Shown one piece after another: positions 30,041-41,100 of a stretch of DNA of 64,000 bases. Position numbers and translations under genes: made by a program. How positions within the stretch are numbered: position 1 is the stretch's first letter; the number at the start of each line of letters is the position of its first letter. This DNA comes from Bryobacteraceae bacterium (GTDB lineage Bacteria > Acidobacteriota > Terriglobia > Bryobacterales > Bryobacteraceae). The DNA lies in NCBI GenBank assembly GCA_019748195.1, contig JAIEPW010000106.1, positions 1-64,000 of the forward strand, read 5' to 3'. The notes under the pieces are model-generated. The model saw only the letters and a list, made by a program, of their open reading frames with translations. It did no database searches and was not told the origin of the DNA.

Positions 30041-32143
<2,103 letters not shown>

Positions 32144-32272
32144 CGATGTGTTTCCTTTTAATCAAATGCCGTCCGTGCCCTTGCGAACCGGAACGGTGCA
32201 AGTTGACCAAGAGGAGACTTTGGAGTGAACTGCCTTGGTGATGCGCGCTCGCGTGCTCAACGCGTGCGTTCG

Positions 32273-32292
32273 GGCGGGAAACCGTCCCCGCC
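32273..32292 (-). promoter_or_regulatory. Hairpin in the rpsO-pnp intergenic region
   Basis: GGCGGG (32273-32278) pairs with CCCGCC (32287-32292) across an eight-base loop, 20 bases after the rpsO stop. There is no T-run, so it is not a simple terminator. In other bacteria this gap holds RNase III sites and an attenuator through which PNPase limits its own mRNA. The same role here is inference. A second short inverted repeat (CGCG arms) lies about 30 bases further along. Confidence 0.4.
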
Positions 32293-32311
32293 TGCCGTGG
32301 TAAACCGGGAG

Positions 32312-32581
32312 CTATCGGCGGATGCCCAAGCTCTGGATCAGAGTCTGGTAACGTTCCGGACTATGCTTCTTCAAGTAATCCAGCAAACGGCGCCGCCGGG
32401 CCACCATCGTCAATAGACCTCGACGGGAATGGTGGTCCTTCTTGTGAGTCTTGAAATGCTCCGTGAGTTCGCCGATCCGGCGGCTCAAGATGGCGACTTG
32501 TACCTCGGGCGATCCGGTATCAGATTTGTGAACCCGATACTTGGAGATCACCTGCTGCTTTTCTTCGGAAACCAGTGCCAT
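32312..32581 (-). CDS. rpsO: Small ribosomal subunit protein uS15
   Basis: This is 89 residues, the exact family length. The diagnostic S15 segments are [36 protein letters not shown] and [10 protein letters not shown]. It binds 16S rRNA early in assembly of the small-subunit platform. It is upstream of pnp in the usual arrangement, with a 168-base gap between them. Confidence 0.99.
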
Positions 32582-32714: not shown

Positions 32715-33155
32715 CTATTGCTTCTGCTCGCCCGGCTTGTCGTACGGCGCCCCGGTGCCGGAGGACCCCATGAAGAACTTGCGGCCGTCGGCCAGCGTGA
32801 CGTCCCGGCCGTTGGCGCGGTTGGACCGGTCCTTGGCCTGATAGCCGTCCACGATGATCATTTCGCCGGGCTTGATGGTGTCCCGCTTCAGGCCCCGCCG
32901 CAGCAGGCTGTTCGGAGTGCCCCCTTCCACCATCCACACCTTCTTCGATCCGTCCTTTTCGGTGACCTCCAGGTGGATCCAGGTGTGCGGGTTGATCCAC
33001 TCCACCTTCACCACCGGACCTTTCAGCAGCAGCGGACGGTTCGGATCGAACTCCGCCCCGAAGGCGTGATGCGCGTACAGCGGCGCGGTCCACCAGAGCA
33101 ATCCGCCCACGGCGCCCGCCGCCGCCAGAGTCAGCCATTTCGCATTGCGGCTCAT
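32715..33155 (-). CDS. DUF6152-family secreted protein
   Basis: This is 146 residues. An N-terminal signal peptide (about 1-28, ending YAHHAFG region) is followed by the DUF6152 pattern: HHAFGAEFD, VKVEWINPHTWIHLEV and WMVEGGTPNSLLRRGL. The mature protein is probably a small periplasmic beta-barrel. The function is unknown. It is the last gene of a five-gene minus-strand operon, 24 bases behind the preceding gene. Confidence 0.85.
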   Translation of the reverse strand: MSRNAKWLTLAAAGAVGGLLWWTAPLYAHHAFGAEFDPNRPLLLKGPVVKVEWINPHTWIHLEVTEKDGSKKVWMVEGGTPNSLLRRGLKRDTIKPGEMIIVDGYQAKDRSNRANGRDVTLADGRKFFMGSSGTGAPYDKPGEQKQ

Positions 33156-33179
33156 GATCTGTAGTCCCTCCTACGAATT

Positions 33180-34235
33180 CTACTTCTTCTCCGACGCCTT
33201 CTTGGCTTCCGCCTCGGCTTCCAGCACGCGCGCGCCGCGCAGGATTCCGGCGAACGAATAGTTGCCTTCATGGCAGGCGTATTCGTAAATGCGCTGGTCA
33301 GTGGCGGGCCAGATCATTTCCCCGCTCCAGGGGGCGGTCCACACCGTGGGATCCTCCACGGTGAACTGATAGCGCAGCGTCTTGGCGTCAATGCGCGAGA
33401 AACGCTCCACCACGTGCAGGTTGCGCGTGGCATTGAACAGCCCGGAACGGTCCGTGAAATTGGTGGTGTCCACCACCAGCGTGTCGCCTTCCCACCTGCC
33501 GATGGAATCGCCGAGCCAGCGCCGGATTTCGGGCGGCTCATGCTTGCCGTTGATGCGAATGATCCGCGCGTCATGCACCATCTCGTTCAGGATGATCACC
33601 GTGTCCTTGGTCTGTACGATGCGCTTCACATTGTTGTAGAGCACGGGCAGAGCGGGCGGTCCGGCGGAGGAACCGAACCCCAGCAGGCAGCGCTCGGCCA
33701 GGCCTCGCAGTTCCGGATCGTCGAACGGGCCGGGGTTGAGCCCTTCGGCCACCCACCAGGCTTCGCCGGTGTTCTGGCGATTGAAGCGGACGCGTTCCCG
33801 CGCCGCCTTCATCGCCGCCGGTGTCATGGGCGGCAGTTGCCCGTTCTTGGGGTCGGTGACGATGGAGGTGCGGTACTTGCCGTTGATCTGGAACGCGCCG
33901 GAGCCGCGATCGGTCCACACCGTGTTATAACCGCCGACGTTGCCCGCGGCGCCTTCCGAGCCGTCTCCGCCCTTGGGCGGAGCGGCGCGATTGGGATCGC
34001 TGCTGCGGCTGTTGGCCGCCATGCGCGCGGCCTCCTGCTTCTCGATGGCCCGCGCCTCGTCCGGCGACAACTCCAGGCGATCGCCCAGCCGCGCCGGGCG
34101 CACCAGGGGGGTCAGCGTGGCGATGTCGTAGGTGCCGGACAGATCCGGCGGCGCCGCGGCGGGTTTCGGCTTCGGCGCCTGCCCGAACGCCTCCACGGCG
34201 CCCAACAGAATTACCGCGAATGTCGTTTTACGCAT
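33180..34235 (-). CDS. Secreted protein of unknown function, operon paralogue A
   Basis: This is 351 residues with a signal peptide (MRKTTFAVILLGAVEAFG), a low-complexity Pro/Ala stretch, and a conserved C-terminal half with WLGDSIGRWEGDTLVVDTTN, FSRIDAKTLRYQFTVEDPTV and a final Glu/Lys-rich tail. The GRWEGDTLVV block also occurs in the next gene upstream, so the two are diverged paralogues that probably fold as a beta-sandwich. ATG 34235 is chosen because GGAGGAG lies six bases upstream; a GTG at 34253 would overlap that ribosome binding site. It carries a single Cys before the conserved domain (AERCLLGFG) and one late (YACHEG). Confidence 0.8.
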   Translation of the reverse strand: MRKTTFAVILLGAVEAFGQAPKPKPAAAPPDLSGTYDIATLTPLVRPARLGDRLELSPDEARAIEKQEAARMAANSRSSDPNRAAPPKGGDGSEGAAGNVGGYNTVWTDRGSGAFQINGKYRTSIVTDPKNGQLPPMTPAAMKAARERVRFNRQNTGEAWWVAEGLNPGPFDDPELRGLAERCLLGFGSSAGPPALPVLYNNVKRIVQTKDTVIILNEMVHDARIIRINGKHEPPEIRRWLGDSIGRWEGDTLVVDTTNFTDRSGLFNATRNLHVVERFSRIDAKTLRYQFTVEDPTVWTAPWSGEMIWPATDQRIYEYACHEGNYSFAGILRGARVLEAEAEAKKASEKK

Positions 34236-34253
34236 CTTCGTCTCCTCCAGCAC

Positions 34254-35096
34254 CTAGCGCGGAAGCGGCTTCCGCCGGTACTCCCCAAACATCAATTCTT
34301 CCACGAACTCCACGCACTTGAAGTCCATCAGCCGCGCGTCCGGCTCCATGCGGCGGTACAACGGCAGCGAGATCTTCCAGGGCGCGGTAAACACCTCGGG
34401 GTCTTCCATGGTGGCCTCATAGCGGATGTGATTCGGGCTCATCATCGTGAAACGCTCGGTCACTTTCAACTGGTTGCTGTGGTGGGTGCCGGAGCGGTCG
34501 AACCAGGTCTGATCGTTCAGTCCGGTGGTGACCACCACCAGCGTGTCCCCTTCCCAGCGGCCCACCGACTGGCCCATCCAGGAATCGGTTTCCGCCGGAC
34601 CCGGGTCCTGGAACAGAATGTCGCGGACCGCGCCCGCATACTCATAAGCGATGAAGAACGAACTGTTGTTCTGCGCGATCTGGAACGGGAACGGCATGTA
34701 CGTCGCGCGCGGGATGCCGGGCAGATAGCACTTCACCTCCGGATCGCGGTCCAGCCAGTTCTTCCGGTTCTCCTCGCGCTTGGCCTGAGCCTCCGGCTTG
34801 TACGGGATCTTGCCGCCCTCGACGATGCCCATGCTGCCCGGGACCGAGCCGACCGCGCCCAGGCGCAGCAGCGGCACGGCGGGCAGCGGTCCGTACGGGC
34901 CGTCCCGCAGCATCAGGGAGGGGCGCGCCATGTGGCGCTCCACGTCGTAGTGGAACGGACCCAGAGCTTGCCAGATGCCGTTGAAGTCGGGCTTGCCGTT
35001 GCCCAGCCTCTGCGGCTGAAATCCGCGCGGCGGCTGGGCGCCCAGGCCCGCGGCGCCGGCCATCAGGATCAACAAAAGCGCAATCGGCGATTTCAT
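34254..35096 (-). CDS. Secreted protein of unknown function, operon paralogue B
   Basis: This is 280 residues with a signal peptide (MKSPIALLLILMAGAAGLGA). The body opens with GNGKPDFNGIWQAL, a start common to this family of Acidobacterial and proteobacterial secreted proteins. It contains VKCYLPGIPRATYMPFPFQI and the shared block SVGRWEGDTLVVVTTGL. It ends MDFKCVEFVEE, where paralogue A has YEYACHEGN at the same place. The function is unknown. The stop lies 18 bases before the start of paralogue A and the start 13 bases after the DUF6644 gene. Confidence 0.8.
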   Translation of the reverse strand: MKSPIALLLILMAGAAGLGAQPPRGFQPQRLGNGKPDFNGIWQALGPFHYDVERHMARPSLMLRDGPYGPLPAVPLLRLGAVGSVPGSMGIVEGGKIPYKPEAQAKREENRKNWLDRDPEVKCYLPGIPRATYMPFPFQIAQNNSSFFIAYEYAGAVRDILFQDPGPAETDSWMGQSVGRWEGDTLVVVTTGLNDQTWFDRSGTHHSNQLKVTERFTMMSPNHIRYEATMEDPEVFTAPWKISLPLYRRMEPDARLMDFKCVEFVEELMFGEYRRKPLPR

Positions 35097-35109
35097 TCAG
35101 TGCTCCCCC

Positions 35110-35592
35110 TCAGTAGAACGCAATCCAGCGGCCGGAGAAAGCCACGCCGAACCACAGCGCGAGCGACGCCAGCGCGGTCAGGCGTCCTCCTCCGGTCACC
35201 GCCAACTCGATGCTCTTCCGCGCCACCCGGCGGCGGACCGTGAAAGCAAAAATCGTAGCCACCGCCAGAAGTCCCATCTTGTACCAGAACGGCGGGCTGT
35301 AGTAGCACTTCACCGCCTCGGACAGGAACATCGGCACGCCGGTCACCGCCATCATCGCCACCCCGCCGGTCAGCCAGGGATGCAGCGCCGCCTCCAGCTT
35401 CGCGGCGGGCTGTTCGCGCAATCCCCAGCCGAGCAACCGCAGGTCCACGGCGAGCACCGCTCCGCCCATCAAGCCCAGCGCCAGAAGGTGCACGCACTCG
35501 ATCACCGGGAACATCCACAGCGATTCGCGGACCTTGGTCCCGATGAAGGTTGCTTCCAGCGATTGAAAAAAGGCGAGCAGATCCATCGTCAT
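35110..35592 (-). CDS. DUF6644-family inner-membrane protein, copy 2
   Basis: This is 160 residues with four predicted membrane helices. It starts LLAFFQSLEATFIGTKVRES and carries the family hallmark FPVIECVHLLALGLMGGAVLAVDLRLLG. An in-membrane His and a DLR motif are conserved with copy 1, which could bind haem or quinone, but this is inference. The start codon overlaps the stop of copy 1 as ATGA, so the two are translated in equal amounts and could form a heterodimer. Confidence 0.85.
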   Translation of the reverse strand: MTMDLLAFFQSLEATFIGTKVRESLWMFPVIECVHLLALGLMGGAVLAVDLRLLGWGLREQPAAKLEAALHPWLTGGVAMMAVTGVPMFLSEAVKCYYSPPFWYKMGLLAVATIFAFTVRRRVARKSIELAVTGGGRLTALASLALWFGVAFSGRWIAFY

Positions 35593-36086
35593 TCAAACCA
35601 CTTGTAGGCTTGCATGCGCCCGCAGATGATCACGCCGCTCCAGAACAGCAGCGAGAACAGGCCCGCCAGGCGCGCGCCCCGCGGCGGATGGAGCGCGGAA
35701 TCCCAGGTTTCCACCTTGCGGAAAACGGTCCGGTGAAACACCATCGCATTCACCCCCGCCAGCACGATCAGCAGCATCTTCACGCGAAAGAAAATATTGG
35801 TGTAGGCTCGCAACGGACCGGAGTAAAACAGCAGCACGCCGGTGATCGCCATCAGCACGAACCCGATCACGCCCAAGGGCTGAATCCGCCGCGTGATCTG
35901 CGTCACCGGAACGTCGCGCAGCGCGATCCCCGTCAGCCGCAGGTCCATCAGCCCGATGAAGCCGAAAAAAAGCGCCAGCGTCAGCACGTGCGTCGTTTCG
36001 ATGATCGGGTACAGCAGGATGGATTCGCGGATGGAAGCGCTGCCGCCTGTCGATTCGAGCCAGGTGAAGAACTCCAGCAAGTTCAT
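35589..36086 (-). CDS. DUF6644-family inner-membrane protein, copy 1
   Basis: This is 165 residues with four predicted helices. It has LLEFFTWLESTGGSASIRES and YPIIETTHVLTLALFFGFIGLMDLRLTG (landmark regions), matching copy 2 position for position. It is the first gene of the operon running to 32715. It diverges from the cytochrome-like lipoprotein gene with an 87-base gap that must hold both promoters. The function is unknown. Confidence 0.85.
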   Translation of the reverse strand: MNLLEFFTWLESTGGSASIRESILLYPIIETTHVLTLALFFGFIGLMDLRLTGIALRDVPVTQITRRIQPLGVIGFVLMAITGVLLFYSGPLRAYTNIFFRVKMLLIVLAGVNAMVFHRTVFRKVETWDSALHPPRGARLAGLFSLLFWSGVIICGRMQAYKWFE

Positions 36087-36173
36087 CGCGATGCGTTAGG
36101 GCTCCGGTAAATCATTTCGCGCGCCGTGAGGAAGTTAGTATATGCTACTCTTTCGCGATTCCGGGAGAACGAC

Positions 36174-36671
36174 ATGAAAATTTACAGTGCCCTGCTGGCC
36201 GCGGCGTCCTGCCTGCTCCTGACCGGATGCAACAAGCCGCAGGCCGCCGCCACCGCCGCCGCCGCGCCGCCGTACAAGCCGGTCGCGACGCTGGAAGAGG
36301 TGATGCACGGCATGGTGATCCCCAACGCGGAGGTGGTCTGGGATGCCGTGGGCTACGTCAGCACCGTCAAGGGCAGCACCGAGATCAAGCCGGCGAGTGA
36401 AGACGACTGGATCAAGATCGAAGCCAGCGCGATCACGCTGACCGAGGCGGGCAACCTGCTGATGATGTCCGGCCGCGCCAAGGACAACGCCAAGTGGATG
36501 GAACGGTGCCGCGCGCTGGTCGACGCCGGCAGCTCCGTTCTGAAAGCCGCCAAGGCCCGCAACCCCGAGGAGTTATTCACCCGCGGCGGCGACCTTTTTG
36601 ACGCCTGCCAGGAATGCCACTTCCAGTACCGGTTCACCACCAAGGACCCGGGGACGTTCCGCAGCCACTAG
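36174..36671 (+). CDS. Lipoprotein with a C-terminal CxxCH haem motif (class II cytochrome c-like)
   Basis: This is 165 residues. The signal sequence ends in the lipobox LLTGC, so the mature protein is lipid-anchored in the periplasm. After an Ala-rich linker the body is helical and ends in CQECHFQYRF, a single CxxCH close to the C-terminus as in four-helix-bundle cytochromes c' / c-556. It could deliver or accept electrons for the divergent DUF6644 operon. ATG 36174 follows GGGAGAA. Its last bases overlap the convergent response-regulator gene (stop codons interleaved). Confidence 0.85.
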   Translation: MKIYSALLAAASCLLLTGCNKPQAAATAAAAPPYKPVATLEEVMHGMVIPNAEVVWDAVGYVSTVKGSTEIKPASEDDWIKIEASAITLTEAGNLLMMSGRAKDNAKWMERCRALVDAGSSVLKAAKARNPEELFTRGGDLFDACQECHFQYRFTTKDPGTFRSH

Positions 36672-37141
36672 CGGCACGCTGCCGCTCGGGCGCCAGCGCC
36701 CGGCAGCCGGACGCATTCGAACCAGTAAGACACCAACTGACGCGTCAGCGCGAACACCTCGTCGATGCTTTCCGGCTTGCCCACATAAGAGTTCGCCCCG
36801 CAAGAGTAGCAGCGTTCGATATCGTCAGGATTCGTGGAACCCGATAACACCACCACGGGAATGCACTTCAGGCGCGGATCGGAGCGGACGTGCTGCAGCA
36901 CCTCATAGCCGCTCATTACCGGAGCGTTCAGATCGAGCAGCAGGAGATCGCAGGCGGCGCCGCTTTCGCGAAAGGCGTCCAGCACCCGGATCGCCTCGCC
37001 GCCGTCGCCCACGATCCGCACTTCCACGGCCGCGCCTGACGCGGCGAATCCCATCCGCAGCAGGTGCGCATCGGCGGCGTTATCCTCCACCACCAGAATT
37101 CGGGGAACGCGGGAGGAGAAGTGTGACATAGAGTTGCTCAT
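36668..37141 (-). CDS. Single-domain response regulator (Rcp1-like)
   Basis: This is a 157-residue receiver domain without an output domain. Acidic pocket residues are in VVEDNAADAHLL, the phospho-acceptor Asp is in LLLDLNAPVMSG, Thr/Ser is in VVLSGSTNP, and Lys is in YVGKPES. This DLNxPxMxG type is typical of partners of phytochrome-like kinases. Its ATG (37141) overlaps the TGA of the upstream kinase as ATGA, which sets a fixed ratio of the two proteins. A longer upstream frame is rejected because it would run deep inside the kinase gene. Confidence 0.93.
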   Translation of the reverse strand: MSNSMSHFSSRVPRILVVEDNAADAHLLRMGFAASGAAVEVRIVGDGGEAIRVLDAFRESGAACDLLLLDLNAPVMSGYEVLQHVRSDPRLKCIPVVVLSGSTNPDDIERCYSCGANSYVGKPESIDEVFALTRQLVSYWFECVRLPGAGARAAACR

Positions 37142-40100
37142 GATGGGGTACCCGGCCCGGGCGCGATCGGCGCGGGCGCCGCATTCGGCGCCGTGAAGAA
37201 AAATGTGGACCCTTTCCCCGGCTCCGATTCCACCCAGATTCGCCCGCCGTGACGCTCCACGATTCGCTTGGCGATGCTGAGCCCGATTCCGGTTCCGGGA
37301 AATTCGCGGCCGTGCAGCCGCTTGAAGACCGTGAAGATATGCTCGGAGTAGCGCGGATCGATGCCGATGCCGTTGTCGCGAACCGAGAGGATCCACTCCG
37401 GCCCGGCCGCCCGCGCCGAAATATGAATGGCGGGGGGATCCGGACCGCGATACTTGATCGCGTTGCCGATCAGGTTCTGCAGCAATTGCAAAAGCAGCGT
37501 GCGATCCATGGCGACGGTGGGCAATGGATCGAAGGTGATGGCCGCGCCCGCGCTCTGGATGGCGATCTGCAAATTCATGATGGCCGAGGCGAGAACGGCT
37601 TCCGAGTTTGCCGGTCCGGGTTTGATCTCCTCGTGCGCCACCTGCGAATACGCCAGCAGGTCCAGAACCATGTGGCGCATCCGCTCGGCCGCCGCCACCA
37701 CGTGATCCAGGTAACCGGTGGTGTTTTCGTCCAGGCTGGCGCTCAGATCGCGGCGCAGCAACTGCAGGTACACGGTGACCGTCCGCAGCGGCTCCTGCAG
37801 GTCATGCGAGGCCGCGAACGCGAACTGCTGCAGATCCAGGTTGTAGCGCCGCAGTTGGTCCTGCGATCTGCGCTCCTCGGTCACGTCCCGGATGTTGAGT
37901 TGCACGCAGCGCTTGCCCTGGATTCGATACTGGTTGCCGATGACCGATACCACCAGCTCGCGTCCGTCCCGGGTGCGGATTACGGAATCGTAGCGCGCTT
38001 CCTCCTCCCAAGAAACCAGGTCGAGCACGCCAGCCGCCTGCCCGGGACCGGCGAAGGGTGCGATGTCCGCGAACGAGCGGCCCAGAAGCGTGGATTTTTC
38101 GTATCCGGTGACCTCGCAGAATCGCGGGTTCGCGTCAATCACCTCGCCGGTGTCCGCGTCCAGCAGGACAATCAGGTCACGAGCCGATTCAAACAGCCGC
38201 CGGTAGCGAATGCCCGCGGCTTCCTTGCGGTCCGTTACGTCCTCGATGGCCAGCAGGACCTCGGAACGCTTGGGATCGCGCCCGACGATCCGCCGCGCGT
38301 TCAGCCGCATGGTGCGGCGCCCGACGCCGAGAATCTCCTGCTCCACCTCCAGGTCGCGGAACGGGACATCGCGCGCCAGAGCCTGGTCCAGCAGGGAACG
38401 CAATTCCGGAAGATCCCATTGTCCGCCGCCGATTTCGTGGAGAAGCTGCCCGTTGGCCTGCGCGGGGGTCAAATGGAACGTCCGGTAGAAGGCGGAGGTC
38501 GCCCGCTGGATTCGCAAGTCGGCATCCAGAACCAGCAGCGGATGCCGCACCGTCTCCACGATCGCCTCCGCGAAGTCGCGCGCGATTTCGGCGCTTTCCA
38601 GCGCGCGGGTCAGCGCATTGGTGTCGATAAAGGCAGCCACCGCCCCGTCGATCCGGTCATCCAGCGTTCGATACGGCCTCGCGATCACCTGGTACCGGCA
38701 GCCGTCCGCGTCGGTCGCGCCCTGCTCCTGCACCGCCAGCGTGCGGATCGCCGCCGCCAGCATTTCCGCCACCGGGACGCCGGGGAAATTCAACGGCATC
38801 GTGCGAACCTCGCGTCCCACATCGGCGGAGGACAGGTTCAACAGGCGCTCCGCGGCCGGCGTAAAACGCCGCAGCCGCATGTCCATGCCGCACATCAGAA
38901 TAGGAATGTTTACCGCGTTCAGCACGTTGCTCAGGTCATTGCTGACAATCGAGATCTCCGCGTTGCGGTGGCTCAATTCCTCGTTGACGCTGATCAGCTC
39001 TTCGTTGGAGGATTGCACTTCCTCCTTGGCGGTCCGCAATTCCTCATTGGCGCTTTGCAGTTCCTCGTTGGCGGACTGCGCCTCCTCATTGGCCGCGCGC
39101 AGTTCTTCGGTCGCGGCCTCATGCTGTTCCGTGATCTTGCGCAGGTAATCGCGCGCTTCCGCCAGTTCCGCGCGCAGGGCGGCCACGGGCCCCGCCTGCC
39201 CGCCTTCCGCCTCGCTGACGGCCGCGGCCGGCTCCTCCTCGCGAGCCTCGAACAGCACCAGGAAACAACGCGTTTCGGCGTGGCTCACCGGAATGACGTG
39301 CAGTTGGATCTCCCGGCGCCGGCCCTCGTGCACGATCCAGATCCCCGATTCACGGACGGGTTCATTGCCCGCCGCCGCCAGATCCACCGCGCGGCGGACG
39401 GGATAAACCAGCGCTTCGTTGACCAGCCGCAGCAGGTGCAGACTCGCGTCCCCCTGCGGCGAAGCCTGCAGAAACGGGCTCGTCTGGCCGTGGAAATGAA
39501 GGATCTCCAGGTCGCCGGTGACCAGAACCCCGGGAGGCGCATACAGGTTGCGAAGGATGCGCAGCGCCGTGATTTCCAGCGATCCCGCCGATAGGAGCCC
39601 GGTGCGGCCGGGAACCCGCGGCTGGCTGCTTTCCGCCTTCTGCCGGTGTTGCGGGAAACCGAACACCGACGCGGGTGACGCCGGAGCCGCGCGGCGCGCG
39701 AAGATCTTGTGTTCCGCGTTCAGCGGCGCGAACAGATCCCCCGGACCTTCGGCCGTTTCCGCGCTGCCCAGCACCAGGATGCCCCCGGGATTCAGACTGT
39801 AATGCAACAACGGCATGATGCGCCGCTGGGCATGCGCCGCGATGTAAATCAGCACGTTGCGGCACACCACCAGGTCCAGCCGCGAGAACGGCGCGTCGGC
39901 GGTCAGATCGTGGCGGGCGAAAATACACCGGTCGCGGATCGCCTGGGAAATACGGTAGCCCGAATCCACCCGCGTGAAGTGGCGGTCCAGCCGCTTCCGG
40001 CTGACCTCCTGCTCGATGGCCGCCGGGTATAGCCCCGCGCGAGCCTTATCGATCGCCGCTTCACTCACATCCGTGGCGATGATCTGCACCCGCCTGGGCT

Positions 40101-41100
40101 TCGATACCCGTTCCAGCGCCTCCAGCACGACGATCGCGGTGGAATAGGCCTCTTCGCCCGTCGAGCAACCCGCCACCCATACCCGGAACGGGTCGTCCGC
40201 GTTCCGGCCCTCCACATAAGCGCCGATCTGGCGCGACAACTCGGCGAAGACTTCGGGCTCCCGGAAGAAAGAAGTGACGTTGATCAGCATGTCGCGGAAC
40301 AGCTCCCCCGCCTCGCGCGGCTGGGTCTCGAGAAGTTCCACGTACTCGGCCAGGGAACCGGCGCCATGCAGCGCCATGCGCCGCTGGATGCGGCGGCGGA
40401 CTGTATTTTCCTTGTAGTCGCCGAAATTGACCCGCCCTTCGGCGGCGACGATGCTCAAGATTCTCTGCAGCAGTTCTTCTTCCGGCTCCGGAGGACCGGC
40501 CCGCGCGGGCTCCAGGCGGGCCTGGGCGACTTCCGACAACCCGCGCGCGATTTCCCCCGGGGGCAGGACAAAGTCCACCGCGCCGGTCATCGCCGCGCTG
40601 TGCGGCATGCCGCCGTACTTGGCGGAAGCCTCGTCCTGGCTGAAGGTGATTCCGCCCGCCGCCTTCACGGCGCGCAGCCCTTCCGAGCCGTCGGAAGCCG
40701 TCCCGGAGAGCACCACCGCCACCGCCCGCTCGCCCTGATCCTGTGCCAGCGACCGGAAGAAGGCGTCGATGGGATGATGCGGGGAGGCGTTCTGGTCCCG
40801 CGGAGAGAGGTGCAGCACGCCTTCCCGCACGGCGATCGCGGTGTTCGGCGGAATCACGTATACCCGGTTGCGCTCGACGCGGGTCCCGTCCATCACCTGT
40901 TCCACAGGCATTTGGGAACTCTGCGCCAGGATCTCCGCCAGATGGCTTTCGCGGTGAGGCTCCAGGTGCTGCACCACCACGATCGCCAGGTTAGGCTCGG
41001 GCGGCAGTCCCTTCAGAAGGTCGCTGATGGCCTCCAGGCCTCCGGCGGACGCACCGACACCGGCAATACGGATGCCGTTGGTGCGTTCGCCTGCATGCAT
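37138..41100 (-). CDS. CheB-CheR-PAS hybrid histidine kinase
   Basis: This is a 1320-residue multidomain cytoplasmic protein. The order is a CheB-type methylesterase (about 10-190; GASAGG, VVQHLEPH, LSGTASDGSEG), a CheR-type methyltransferase (about 210-475; FRDMLINVTSFFR, VAGCSTGEEAYS), and a Glu/Asn-rich coiled coil of repeated SANEEL units (about 640-730). Then come three PAS domains (about 740-1085), HisKA with SHDLQEPLR (His about 1099), and a HATPase domain. All catalytic motifs look intact. Such fusions are thought to link receptor-like modification with phosphotransfer. The response regulator that follows is the likely partner. It starts at ATG 41100. Confidence 0.95.
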   Translation of the reverse strand: MHAGERTNGIRIAGVGASAGGLEAISDLLKGLPPEPNLAIVVVQHLEPHRESHLAEILAQSSQMPVEQVMDGTRVERNRVYVIPPNTAIAVREGVLHLSPRDQNASPHHPIDAFFRSLAQDQGERAVAVVLSGTASDGSEGLRAVKAAGGITFSQDEASAKYGGMPHSAAMTGAVDFVLPPGEIARGLSEVAQARLEPARAGPPEPEEELLQRILSIVAAEGRVNFGDYKENTVRRRIQRRMALHGAGSLAEYVELLETQPREAGELFRDMLINVTSFFREPEVFAELSRQIGAYVEGRNADDPFRVWVAGCSTGEEAYSTAIVVLEALERVSKPRRVQIIATDVSEAAIDKARAGLYPAAIEQEVSRKRLDRHFTRVDSGYRISQAIRDRCIFARHDLTADAPFSRLDLVVCRNVLIYIAAHAQRRIMPLLHYSLNPGGILVLGSAETAEGPGDLFAPLNAEHKIFARRAAPASPASVFGFPQHRQKAESSQPRVPGRTGLLSAGSLEITALRILRNLYAPPGVLVTGDLEILHFHGQTSPFLQASPQGDASLHLLRLVNEALVYPVRRAVDLAAAGNEPVRESGIWIVHEGRRREIQLHVIPVSHAETRCFLVLFEAREEEPAAAVSEAEGGQAGPVAALRAELAEARDYLRKITEQHEAATEELRAANEEAQSANEELQSANEELRTAKEEVQSSNEELISVNEELSHRNAEISIVSNDLSNVLNAVNIPILMCGMDMRLRRFTPAAERLLNLSSADVGREVRTMPLNFPGVPVAEMLAAAIRTLAVQEQGATDADGCRYQVIARPYRTLDDRIDGAVAAFIDTNALTRALESAEIARDFAEAIVETVRHPLLVLDADLRIQRATSAFYRTFHLTPAQANGQLLHEIGGGQWDLPELRSLLDQALARDVPFRDLEVEQEILGVGRRTMRLNARRIVGRDPKRSEVLLAIEDVTDRKEAAGIRYRRLFESARDLIVLLDADTGEVIDANPRFCEVTGYEKSTLLGRSFADIAPFAGPGQAAGVLDLVSWEEEARYDSVIRTRDGRELVVSVIGNQYRIQGKRCVQLNIRDVTEERRSQDQLRRYNLDLQQFAFAASHDLQEPLRTVTVYLQLLRRDLSASLDENTTGYLDHVVAAAERMRHMVLDLLAYSQVAHEEIKPGPANSEAVLASAIMNLQIAIQSAGAAITFDPLPTVAMDRTLLLQLLQNLIGNAIKYRGPDPPAIHISARAAGPEWILSVRDNGIGIDPRYSEHIFTVFKRLHGREFPGTGIGLSIAKRIVERHGGRIWVESEPGKGSTFFFTAPNAAPAPIAPGPGTPS

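Follow-up and report, generated by a model that had tools for sequence, protein, structure and literature searches.

A conserved DUF6644–GRW–DUF6152 operon of Bryobacteraceae as a possible CopC/CopD-like metal-handling module

The locus and its gene products

The subject of this analysis is an operon on contig JAIEPW010000106.1 of a Bryobacteraceae bacterium (Acidobacteriota), located in the first 64,000 nucleotides of the contig, which were analyzed as one stretch and are referred to here as the window. On the minus strand, from position 36086 down to 32715, the genes follow one another in the order DUF6644 B, DUF6644 A, GRW2, GRW1, and DUF6152, and a divergent lipoprotein gene starts 87 bases from the first gene of the operon, on the opposite strand (Table 1). 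An earlier note on this DNA, made from the sequence alone, had described five minus-strand genes with gaps of −4, 13, 18, and 24 bases, and the same open reading frames (ORFs) and spacings were recovered here. Its assignment of two products to DUF6644 and one to DUF6152 agrees with Pfam matches that all lie above the family cut-offs, the two related secreted proteins that share GRWEGDTLVV are both members of one unnamed family (GRW), and the divergent lipoprotein carries the single CxxCH motif that the note had reported. DUF6644 A and B are four-helix membrane proteins, with the helices judged by eye. Profile searches of the window's genome returned two DUF6644, one DUF6152, and two GRW matches, and the DUF6644 and GRW matches were located to the operon, whose DUF6152 gene is itself a match to that family.

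Table 1. Genes and sequence features of the operon and the divergent lipoprotein gene
Feature	Position in the window	Strand	Evidence and remarks
DUF6644 B	35589–36086	minus	PF20349, E 1.8e-8, 35.2 bits (cut-off 27)
Membrane His33 of DUF6644 B	35988–35990	minus	Invariant in group alignment
DUF6644 A	35110–35592	minus	PF20349, E 4e-22, 79.5 bits (cut-off 27)
Membrane His35 of DUF6644 A	35488–35490	minus	Invariant in group alignment
GRW2	34254–35096	minus	Unnamed GRWEGDTLVV family; predicted secreted; predicted calycin-like barrel
GRW1	33180–34235	minus	Unnamed GRWEGDTLVV family; predicted secreted; ATG start, ORF extendable to GTG at 34253
DUF6152	32715–33155	minus	PF19649, E 2.6e-29, 101.6 bits (cut-off 27); OB-fold model
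His-His codons, predicted mature residues 1–2 of DUF6152	33066–33071	minus	Predicted cleavage boundary
Inner His29 of DUF6152 (mature numbering, NPH motif)	32985–32987	minus	Invariant in alignment
Cytochrome c'-like lipoprotein	36174–36671	plus	Lipobox LTGC by eye; PF01322, E 0.0015, below cut-off
Haem motif CQECH (CxxCH)	36606–36620	plus	In the lipoprotein

Conservation of the gene set

Among 151 related genomes, DUF6644 was found in 45, DUF6152 in 45, and GRW in 47. Of the 48 genomes with DUF6644 or DUF6152, 42 have both (Fisher p 4e-30), three have only DUF6644, and three have only DUF6152. GRW is present in all 45 DUF6152-bearing genomes (p 2e-36); both p values overstate independence because the genomes are related. 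In a wider sample of the phylum, DUF6644 was found in 14 of 149 genomes.

Gene neighborhoods were compared in 60 hand-picked loci, mostly strong DUF6644 matches at one to three per genome; the set also took in the flank of the window's contig (L091) and one DUF6152 locus without DUF6644 (L080). Genes were called by a GC-frame score, and some starts were missed or extended. Of 57 DUF6644-anchored loci from 42 genomes, 38 have GRW within six genes, 34 have DUF6152, 27 have both, and 14 have the cytochrome family of the divergent lipoprotein. As some genomes carry many GRW copies, a fairer count is that for the 18 loci from genomes with at most six, in which GRW was found in 15, DUF6152 in 13, and the cytochrome in 6; two loci whose DUF6644 matches were missed by the gene caller (L044 and L051) fall outside this count. 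The genes recur, with rearrangements, as blocks consisting of the divergent cytochrome, DUF6644 B-A, and GRW2-GRW1-DUF6152. The same grouping of a cytochrome-like gene, a DUF6644 pair, GRW, and DUF6152 exists outside the phylum on a plasmid of Novosphingobium humi, and the module recurs on Alphaproteobacterial plasmids, with 21 records containing a DUF6152 match. In Paracoccus denitrificans PD1222 and Azospirillum ramasamyi, DUF6152 is directly followed by one DUF6644. The parts list and the co-occurrence are well supported, and the genes whose products the earlier note called membrane-bound or secreted form a real, conserved unit. Scattered genes that do not co-occur in related genomes, which the note had named as the observation that would speak against such a unit, were looked for and are not what the relatives show.

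The DUF6644 A relatives come from 26 named loci of metagenome-assembled Bryobacterales and other Acidobacteriota, some of whose records name Baikal or Lac Pavin; one (L117, VFZE01000026.1) is labelled Acidimicrobiia and is probably a misnamed bin. Two unusual arrangements were also seen. In one genome (G033), a single DUF6152 gene adjoins six tandem DUF6644 genes (L061:7588-11484). On the Sphingobium plasmid pTomTYG65a (L095:5071-8662), a cluster annotated as hypothetical is flanked by monooxygenase genes and a TonB receptor; it holds a DUF6644-like pair, recognized by eye, and two GRW-DUF6152 pairs.

DUF6152 is predicted to begin with His-His and to adopt an OB fold

Of the 45 gene models for acidobacterial DUF6152, 44 show two histidines directly after the apparent end of the signal peptide, preceded by Ala in 43 and by Gly in one, and the remaining model begins within the protein. 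Ala also precedes the His-His pair in all eight translated plasmid-borne Alphaproteobacterial proteins. A simple cleavage rule places His-His at an allowed site in 42 of the 45 proteins and in 37 of 37 members of a second set, which was found with the profile of the DUF6152 alignment. When only proteins with any rule-allowed site are considered, His-His is located there in 72 of 73 DUF6152 proteins, compared with 2 of 137 GRW proteins and 1 of 538 other genes. By rule-based prediction, DUF6152 thus has the mature N-terminal His of histidine-brace-type metal proteins.

The alignment comprises 43 proteins; one sequence whose model starts inside the protein (L083) was left out, and one of two near-identical rows was omitted. 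As the rows were trimmed to begin at His-His, the invariance of residues 1 and 2 is not independent evidence. Invariant within the alignment are the inner His29, Trp46, and three glycines, and Glu49 is conserved at 90% or more. The AlphaFold2 model of DUF6152 is an oligonucleotide/oligosaccharide-binding (OB) fold with a mean predicted local distance difference test (pLDDT) score of 84.2. Fold comparison lists the single-stranded DNA-binding protein SSB and PriB, with a best Z of 9.7 and a root-mean-square deviation (rmsd) of 2.4 Å over 81 residues, and Foldseek returned nothing for the model at E ≤ 0.001. Since its predicted fate is export, the protein is unlikely to act on nucleic acids, as these matches might suggest, and we regard them as fold likeness only.

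A search of the PDB sequences with the DUF6152 profile gave no convincing relative, and among the 43 members there was no match to CopC at E ≤ 0.1 and none to DUF1775. DUF5666 may be distantly related, with weak matches in eight of the 43 (best E 0.003). Our literature search found nothing that names DUF6152, DUF6644, PF19649, or PF20349, and nothing that combines 'histidine brace' with 'OB-fold'. DUF6152 is best described as a predicted exported OB-fold protein and a candidate N-terminal-His metal protein.

DUF6644 comprises two old groups that resemble CopD

In a midpoint-rooted tree, 113 DUF6644 proteins fall into groups of 58 and 55, with support of 0.85 and 0.92 at the split. There are 53 adjacent same-strand DUF6644 pairs, of which 31 combine the two groups and 22 have both members from one group; in 29 of the 31 mixed pairs the same group is upstream. 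The pair, which the earlier note had taken for a duplication, is therefore not a recent one: it joins two old groups, in an almost constant order among the mixed pairs, although this arrangement is not universal.

In Pfam scans of DUF6644 members at E ≤ 0.1, the most frequent other family was DUF2214, with matches in 16 of 46 B and 20 of 47 A proteins. CopD (PF05425) was matched by 8 of 46 B proteins and by 2 of 47 A proteins, in the latter level with NrsF, which makes a total of 10 of 93 relatives (best E 5e-5). A profile comparison with DUF2214 was circular and was not used, as one of the sequences (L191) is itself a DUF6644 match and another (L190) looks like one. When DUF6644 profiles were compared with one of 33 CopD sequences, the probability was 83% for DUF6644 B and 68% for DUF6644 A, whereas the controls reached 0.1–1.4% (GtrA, also a four-helix family) and 0.3–10% (one side reversed). 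With a CopD set that included YebZ, the values were 73.9% for B and 56.7% for A. In DUF6644 B, the invariant His, Gly, TG, and Lys align on His154, Gly163, Gly205, and Lys230 of YebZ, which are conserved in 34, 33, 34, and 32 of 34 CopD rows, respectively, and the invariant membrane His of each group, A as well as B, aligns with the CopD His (YebZ His154). No CopD match was found in the window's genome at E ≤ 0.001, and a PDB sequence search with the DUF6644 B profile gave no convincing relative. HemJ (PF03653) is a haem-binding family; a comparison that could draw only on sub-threshold HemJ matches in 5 of 60 genomes gave a probability below 1% against DUF6644. DUF6644 looks like a remote relative of CopD that shares its invariant membrane His, an assignment that we consider moderately supported by these sequence comparisons.

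GRW is an unnamed family of predicted barrels that is amplified together with DUF6152

Neither GRW1 nor GRW2 has a Pfam or NCBIfam match at E ≤ 1. Searches of the PDB sequences with the two profiles gave no convincing relative, and a Pfam scan of GRW members returned isolated weak matches to three families, with one member each. The GRW2 model (pLDDT 82.5) carries a long inserted segment of low confidence. Its best structural match is CRBP1 (5h9a), with a Z of 9.0 and an rmsd of 2.9 Å over 120 residues, and the best Foldseek E value is a moderate 1.6e-3. GRW is thus predicted to be a calycin-like barrel.

Ten genomes are strongly amplified for GRW, with 48 to at least 150 matches each; these counts are lower bounds, the highest being at least 150. 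Seven of them (G127, G142, G072, G140, G033, G146, and G120) have at least 124 matches each, two of these at least 150, and the window's genome has two. DUF6152 reaches 30 or more matches in nine genomes. In 40 loci taken from the GRW-amplified genomes, DUF6152 adjoins a same-strand GRW gene in 31 of 37 cases, and one DUF6644 was called. With the two families amplified side by side and DUF6644 nearly absent, the GRW-DUF6152 pair appears to form a working unit in its own right, one that plain copper import would not require in so many copies.

Among the families listed for 75 immediate and 74 distant neighbors in the amplified genomes (the first 25 of 107 and of 130, respectively), none was dominant; the commonest near neighbor among those listed was the metallo-beta-lactamase fold (4 of 75), which we do not claim as an enrichment. 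Our literature search for an expanded protein family in Solibacter gave nothing relevant among the papers listed. Several GRW matches (G127:C179, G088:C6, G072:C7, G072:C4, G033:C80, and others) contain a single in-frame TAG, TGA, or TAA and are perhaps decaying members of a fast-turning family.

The divergent gene encodes a cytochrome c'-like lipoprotein

The lipoprotein matches cytochrome c' (PF01322) with 19.9 bits, below the cut-off of 26.5, and has its CxxCH motif at the C-terminal end. In an alignment of 18 relatives, the window's protein included, CxxCH is invariant in all, and 14 match PF01322 at E ≤ 0.01. The lipobox and the sequence likeness point to a lipid-anchored, cytochrome c'-like protein. 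A relative adjoins DUF6644 in other genomes and on the Novosphingobium plasmid, so the cytochrome belongs to the conserved unit. CxxCH proteins in general are more frequent within two genes of DUF6644 (21 of 166) than five or more genes away (8 of 318; p 2e-5). However, when the cytochrome family is removed the difference is not significant (8 of 153 versus 7 of 317; p 0.07). The redox link proposed in the earlier note is therefore carried by this cytochrome family alone.

Genomic surroundings

A scan of the locus for promoters and terminators gave 1 and 3 sites, respectively, no different from shuffled sequence. The operon lies just upstream of genes for rpsO and pnp on the same strand (window positions 30041–32581), and the lipoprotein gene is adjoined at 36668–41100 by minus-strand genes for a single-domain response regulator and a 1320-residue CheB/CheR-PAS-histidine kinase protein; the names of all four genes were assigned by eye.

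Comparison with known systems

The closest parallel is CopC/CopD (YobA-YebZ in Escherichia coli, YcnJ in Bacillus subtilis). Both systems have an exported protein with a mature N-terminal His, predicted in the case of DUF6152, whose gene directly precedes that of a membrane protein: yobA directly precedes yebZ, just as DUF6152 precedes DUF6644 in Paracoccus and Azospirillum. The membrane proteins share the invariant His, Gly, (S/T)G, and Lys and the weak profile likeness described above. Under copper limitation, B. subtilis YcnJ is reported to need both His24 in its CopC domain and His295 in its CopD domain (PMC13344008). The differences are considerable. DUF6152 has a predicted OB fold, lacks a CopC match, and starts with His-His; DUF6644 is one four-helix unit that is often paired, whereas YebZ has 290 residues; and the GRW and cytochrome partners are additional in this module.

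A mature N-terminal His is described for CopC, DUF1775, lytic polysaccharide monooxygenases, DUF4198, DUF6702, and anglerases (PMC12362106, PMC12537917, among others), and CopD genes often neighbor those of DUF1775 and CopC (PMC12362106). The mono-histidine brace of YcnI (DUF1775) combines the N-terminal His with a conserved Trp and a Glu, as may Trp46 and Glu49 in DUF6152, but YcnI has a cupredoxin-like fold (PMC12362106) and none of the 43 DUF6152 proteins matches DUF1775. DUF4198, DUF6702, and the anglerases Ang-1 and Ang-2 are likewise families without a role that were recognized by a His right after the signal peptide; they include DUF families found to bind metals through this residue, and Ang domains are joined to a membrane permease domain (PMC12537917). 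Their domains and partners differ from those of DUF6152, and the main text of that paper mentions neither the OB-fold nor PF19649. The lipoprotein shares the C-terminal CxxCH and the PF01322 matches of its relatives with class II cytochrome c (cytochrome c'), from which it differs in its lipid anchor and in the sub-threshold score of the window protein. GRW2 resembles the calycins (fatty-acid-binding proteins and lipocalins) through the match of its model to CRBP1, but no sequence kinship was found, the inserted segment is additional, and the Foldseek match is moderate.

A possible CopC/CopD-like metal module

The operon is best read as a CopC/CopD-like module that handles a metal, most probably copper, with an OB-fold protein standing in for CopC and with ligand-binding barrels and a cytochrome as additions; we give this reading about an even chance. 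It differs from the redox complex of the earlier note, of which the unit of membrane-bound and secreted proteins stands, the duplication of DUF6644, if taken as recent, does not, and the redox link survives through the cytochrome family. The two observations on which the present reading mainly draws, the N-terminal His-His of DUF6152 and the resemblance of DUF6644 to CopD, do not appear in that note. DUF6152 would be exported and its signal peptide cut just ahead of His-His, a typical arrangement for gripping copper, so that the free amino terminus, His-His, and the inner His of the NPH motif could bind one Cu(II) or other soft metal in the periplasm. Metal binding is likely, and copper is our best guess for the metal. 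DUF6152 would then hand the metal to the paired DUF6644 proteins, a direction that we infer; these would be CopD-like four-helix proteins with one invariant membrane His each and would probably form a heterodimer. The cytochrome c'-like lipoprotein may either use the metal or control its redox state, and the two calycin-like GRW proteins may bind a small ligand, e.g. a metal chelate or an oxidizable substrate.

Several observations weigh against this interpretation. In the window's DUF6152, the site between Ala and His-His passes the −3/−1 rule but fails the hydrophobicity threshold, and the mean pLDDT of residues 1–10 is 73. The window's DUF6644 proteins do not match CopD at E ≤ 1; for this reason, and because CopD was matched in 10 of 93 relatives, we call them CopD-like and not members of CopD. 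The profile probabilities vary with the CopD set chosen and are suggestive only: small or cut sets gave 6.6%, 4.6%, and 20.1% for DUF6644 A and 48.6%, 82.3%, and 34.9% for DUF6644 B. The conserved Trp of CopD has no counterpart in DUF6644, whose membrane His may instead serve haem b. No regular copper enzyme or copper regulator was seen among the neighbors, and the amplification of DUF6152 and GRW away from DUF6644 is unexplained by plain copper import.

This last point would fit a secreted repertoire for the capture or oxidation of small molecules, in which each GRW barrel would take one kind of ligand, the metal centre of DUF6152 would act on it, DUF6644 would load or wire that centre, and copper uptake would be secondary. 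The large GRW numbers in all ten amplified genomes, the same-strand pairing with DUF6152 mostly away from DUF6644, the predicted calycin-like fold, and the catabolic genes that adjoin the Novosphingobium and Sphingobium copies speak for it. The 75 immediate neighbors contain no fixed enzyme partner, however, GRW has no known catalytic site, and the related N-terminal-His proteins Ang-1 and Ang-2 are reported to lack substantial oxidase activity (PMC12537917), which leaves the idea doubtful. We hold with similarly low confidence that the locus represents an undescribed secreted metal chemistry, probably of copper, built from a mature His-His OB-fold protein and a very large family of lipocalin-like barrels, one per ligand and more than 100 per genome in some Acidobacteriota, and loaded or wired by a CopD-like DUF6644 heterodimer.

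It is unlikely that the operon is an electron-transfer module, with DUF6644 A and B binding haem b between their membrane histidines and exchanging electrons with quinone and the cytochrome c'-like lipoprotein, and with DUF6152 and GRW as the periplasmic acceptor or donor side. Each DUF6644 group does have one invariant membrane His, the cytochrome family stands beside DUF6644 in 14 of 57 loci, CxxCH proteins are concentrated near DUF6644, and pyrroloquinoline quinone dehydrogenases are present in the examined loci of 10 genomes. Against this, the CxxCH enrichment is lost without the cytochrome family, most loci, as well as the Paracoccus and Azospirillum pairs, lack such a cytochrome gene beside DUF6644, and in the Pfam scans DUF6644 is nearer to CopD than to known cytochrome b (Sdh_cyt was matched once, at E 0.04). 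A structural or chance envelope association without metal, with DUF6152 a plain OB-fold binder and His-His a signal-peptidase preference of the family, is very improbable, as nearly all DUF6152 proteins, but few others, have His-His right behind the predicted cleavage site, and the inner His is invariant as well.

For five of the six products, the family has no assigned role; one such family, GRW, had no Pfam or NCBIfam match here and yet reaches at least 150 copies in two Acidobacteriota genomes. The two-gene version in P. denitrificans PD1222, a laboratory strain, makes DUF6152 and DUF6644 directly testable. If the CopC/CopD-like reading is true, DUF6152 would add the OB fold to the N-terminal-His metal proteins, and DUF6644 would gain a mechanism through CopD.

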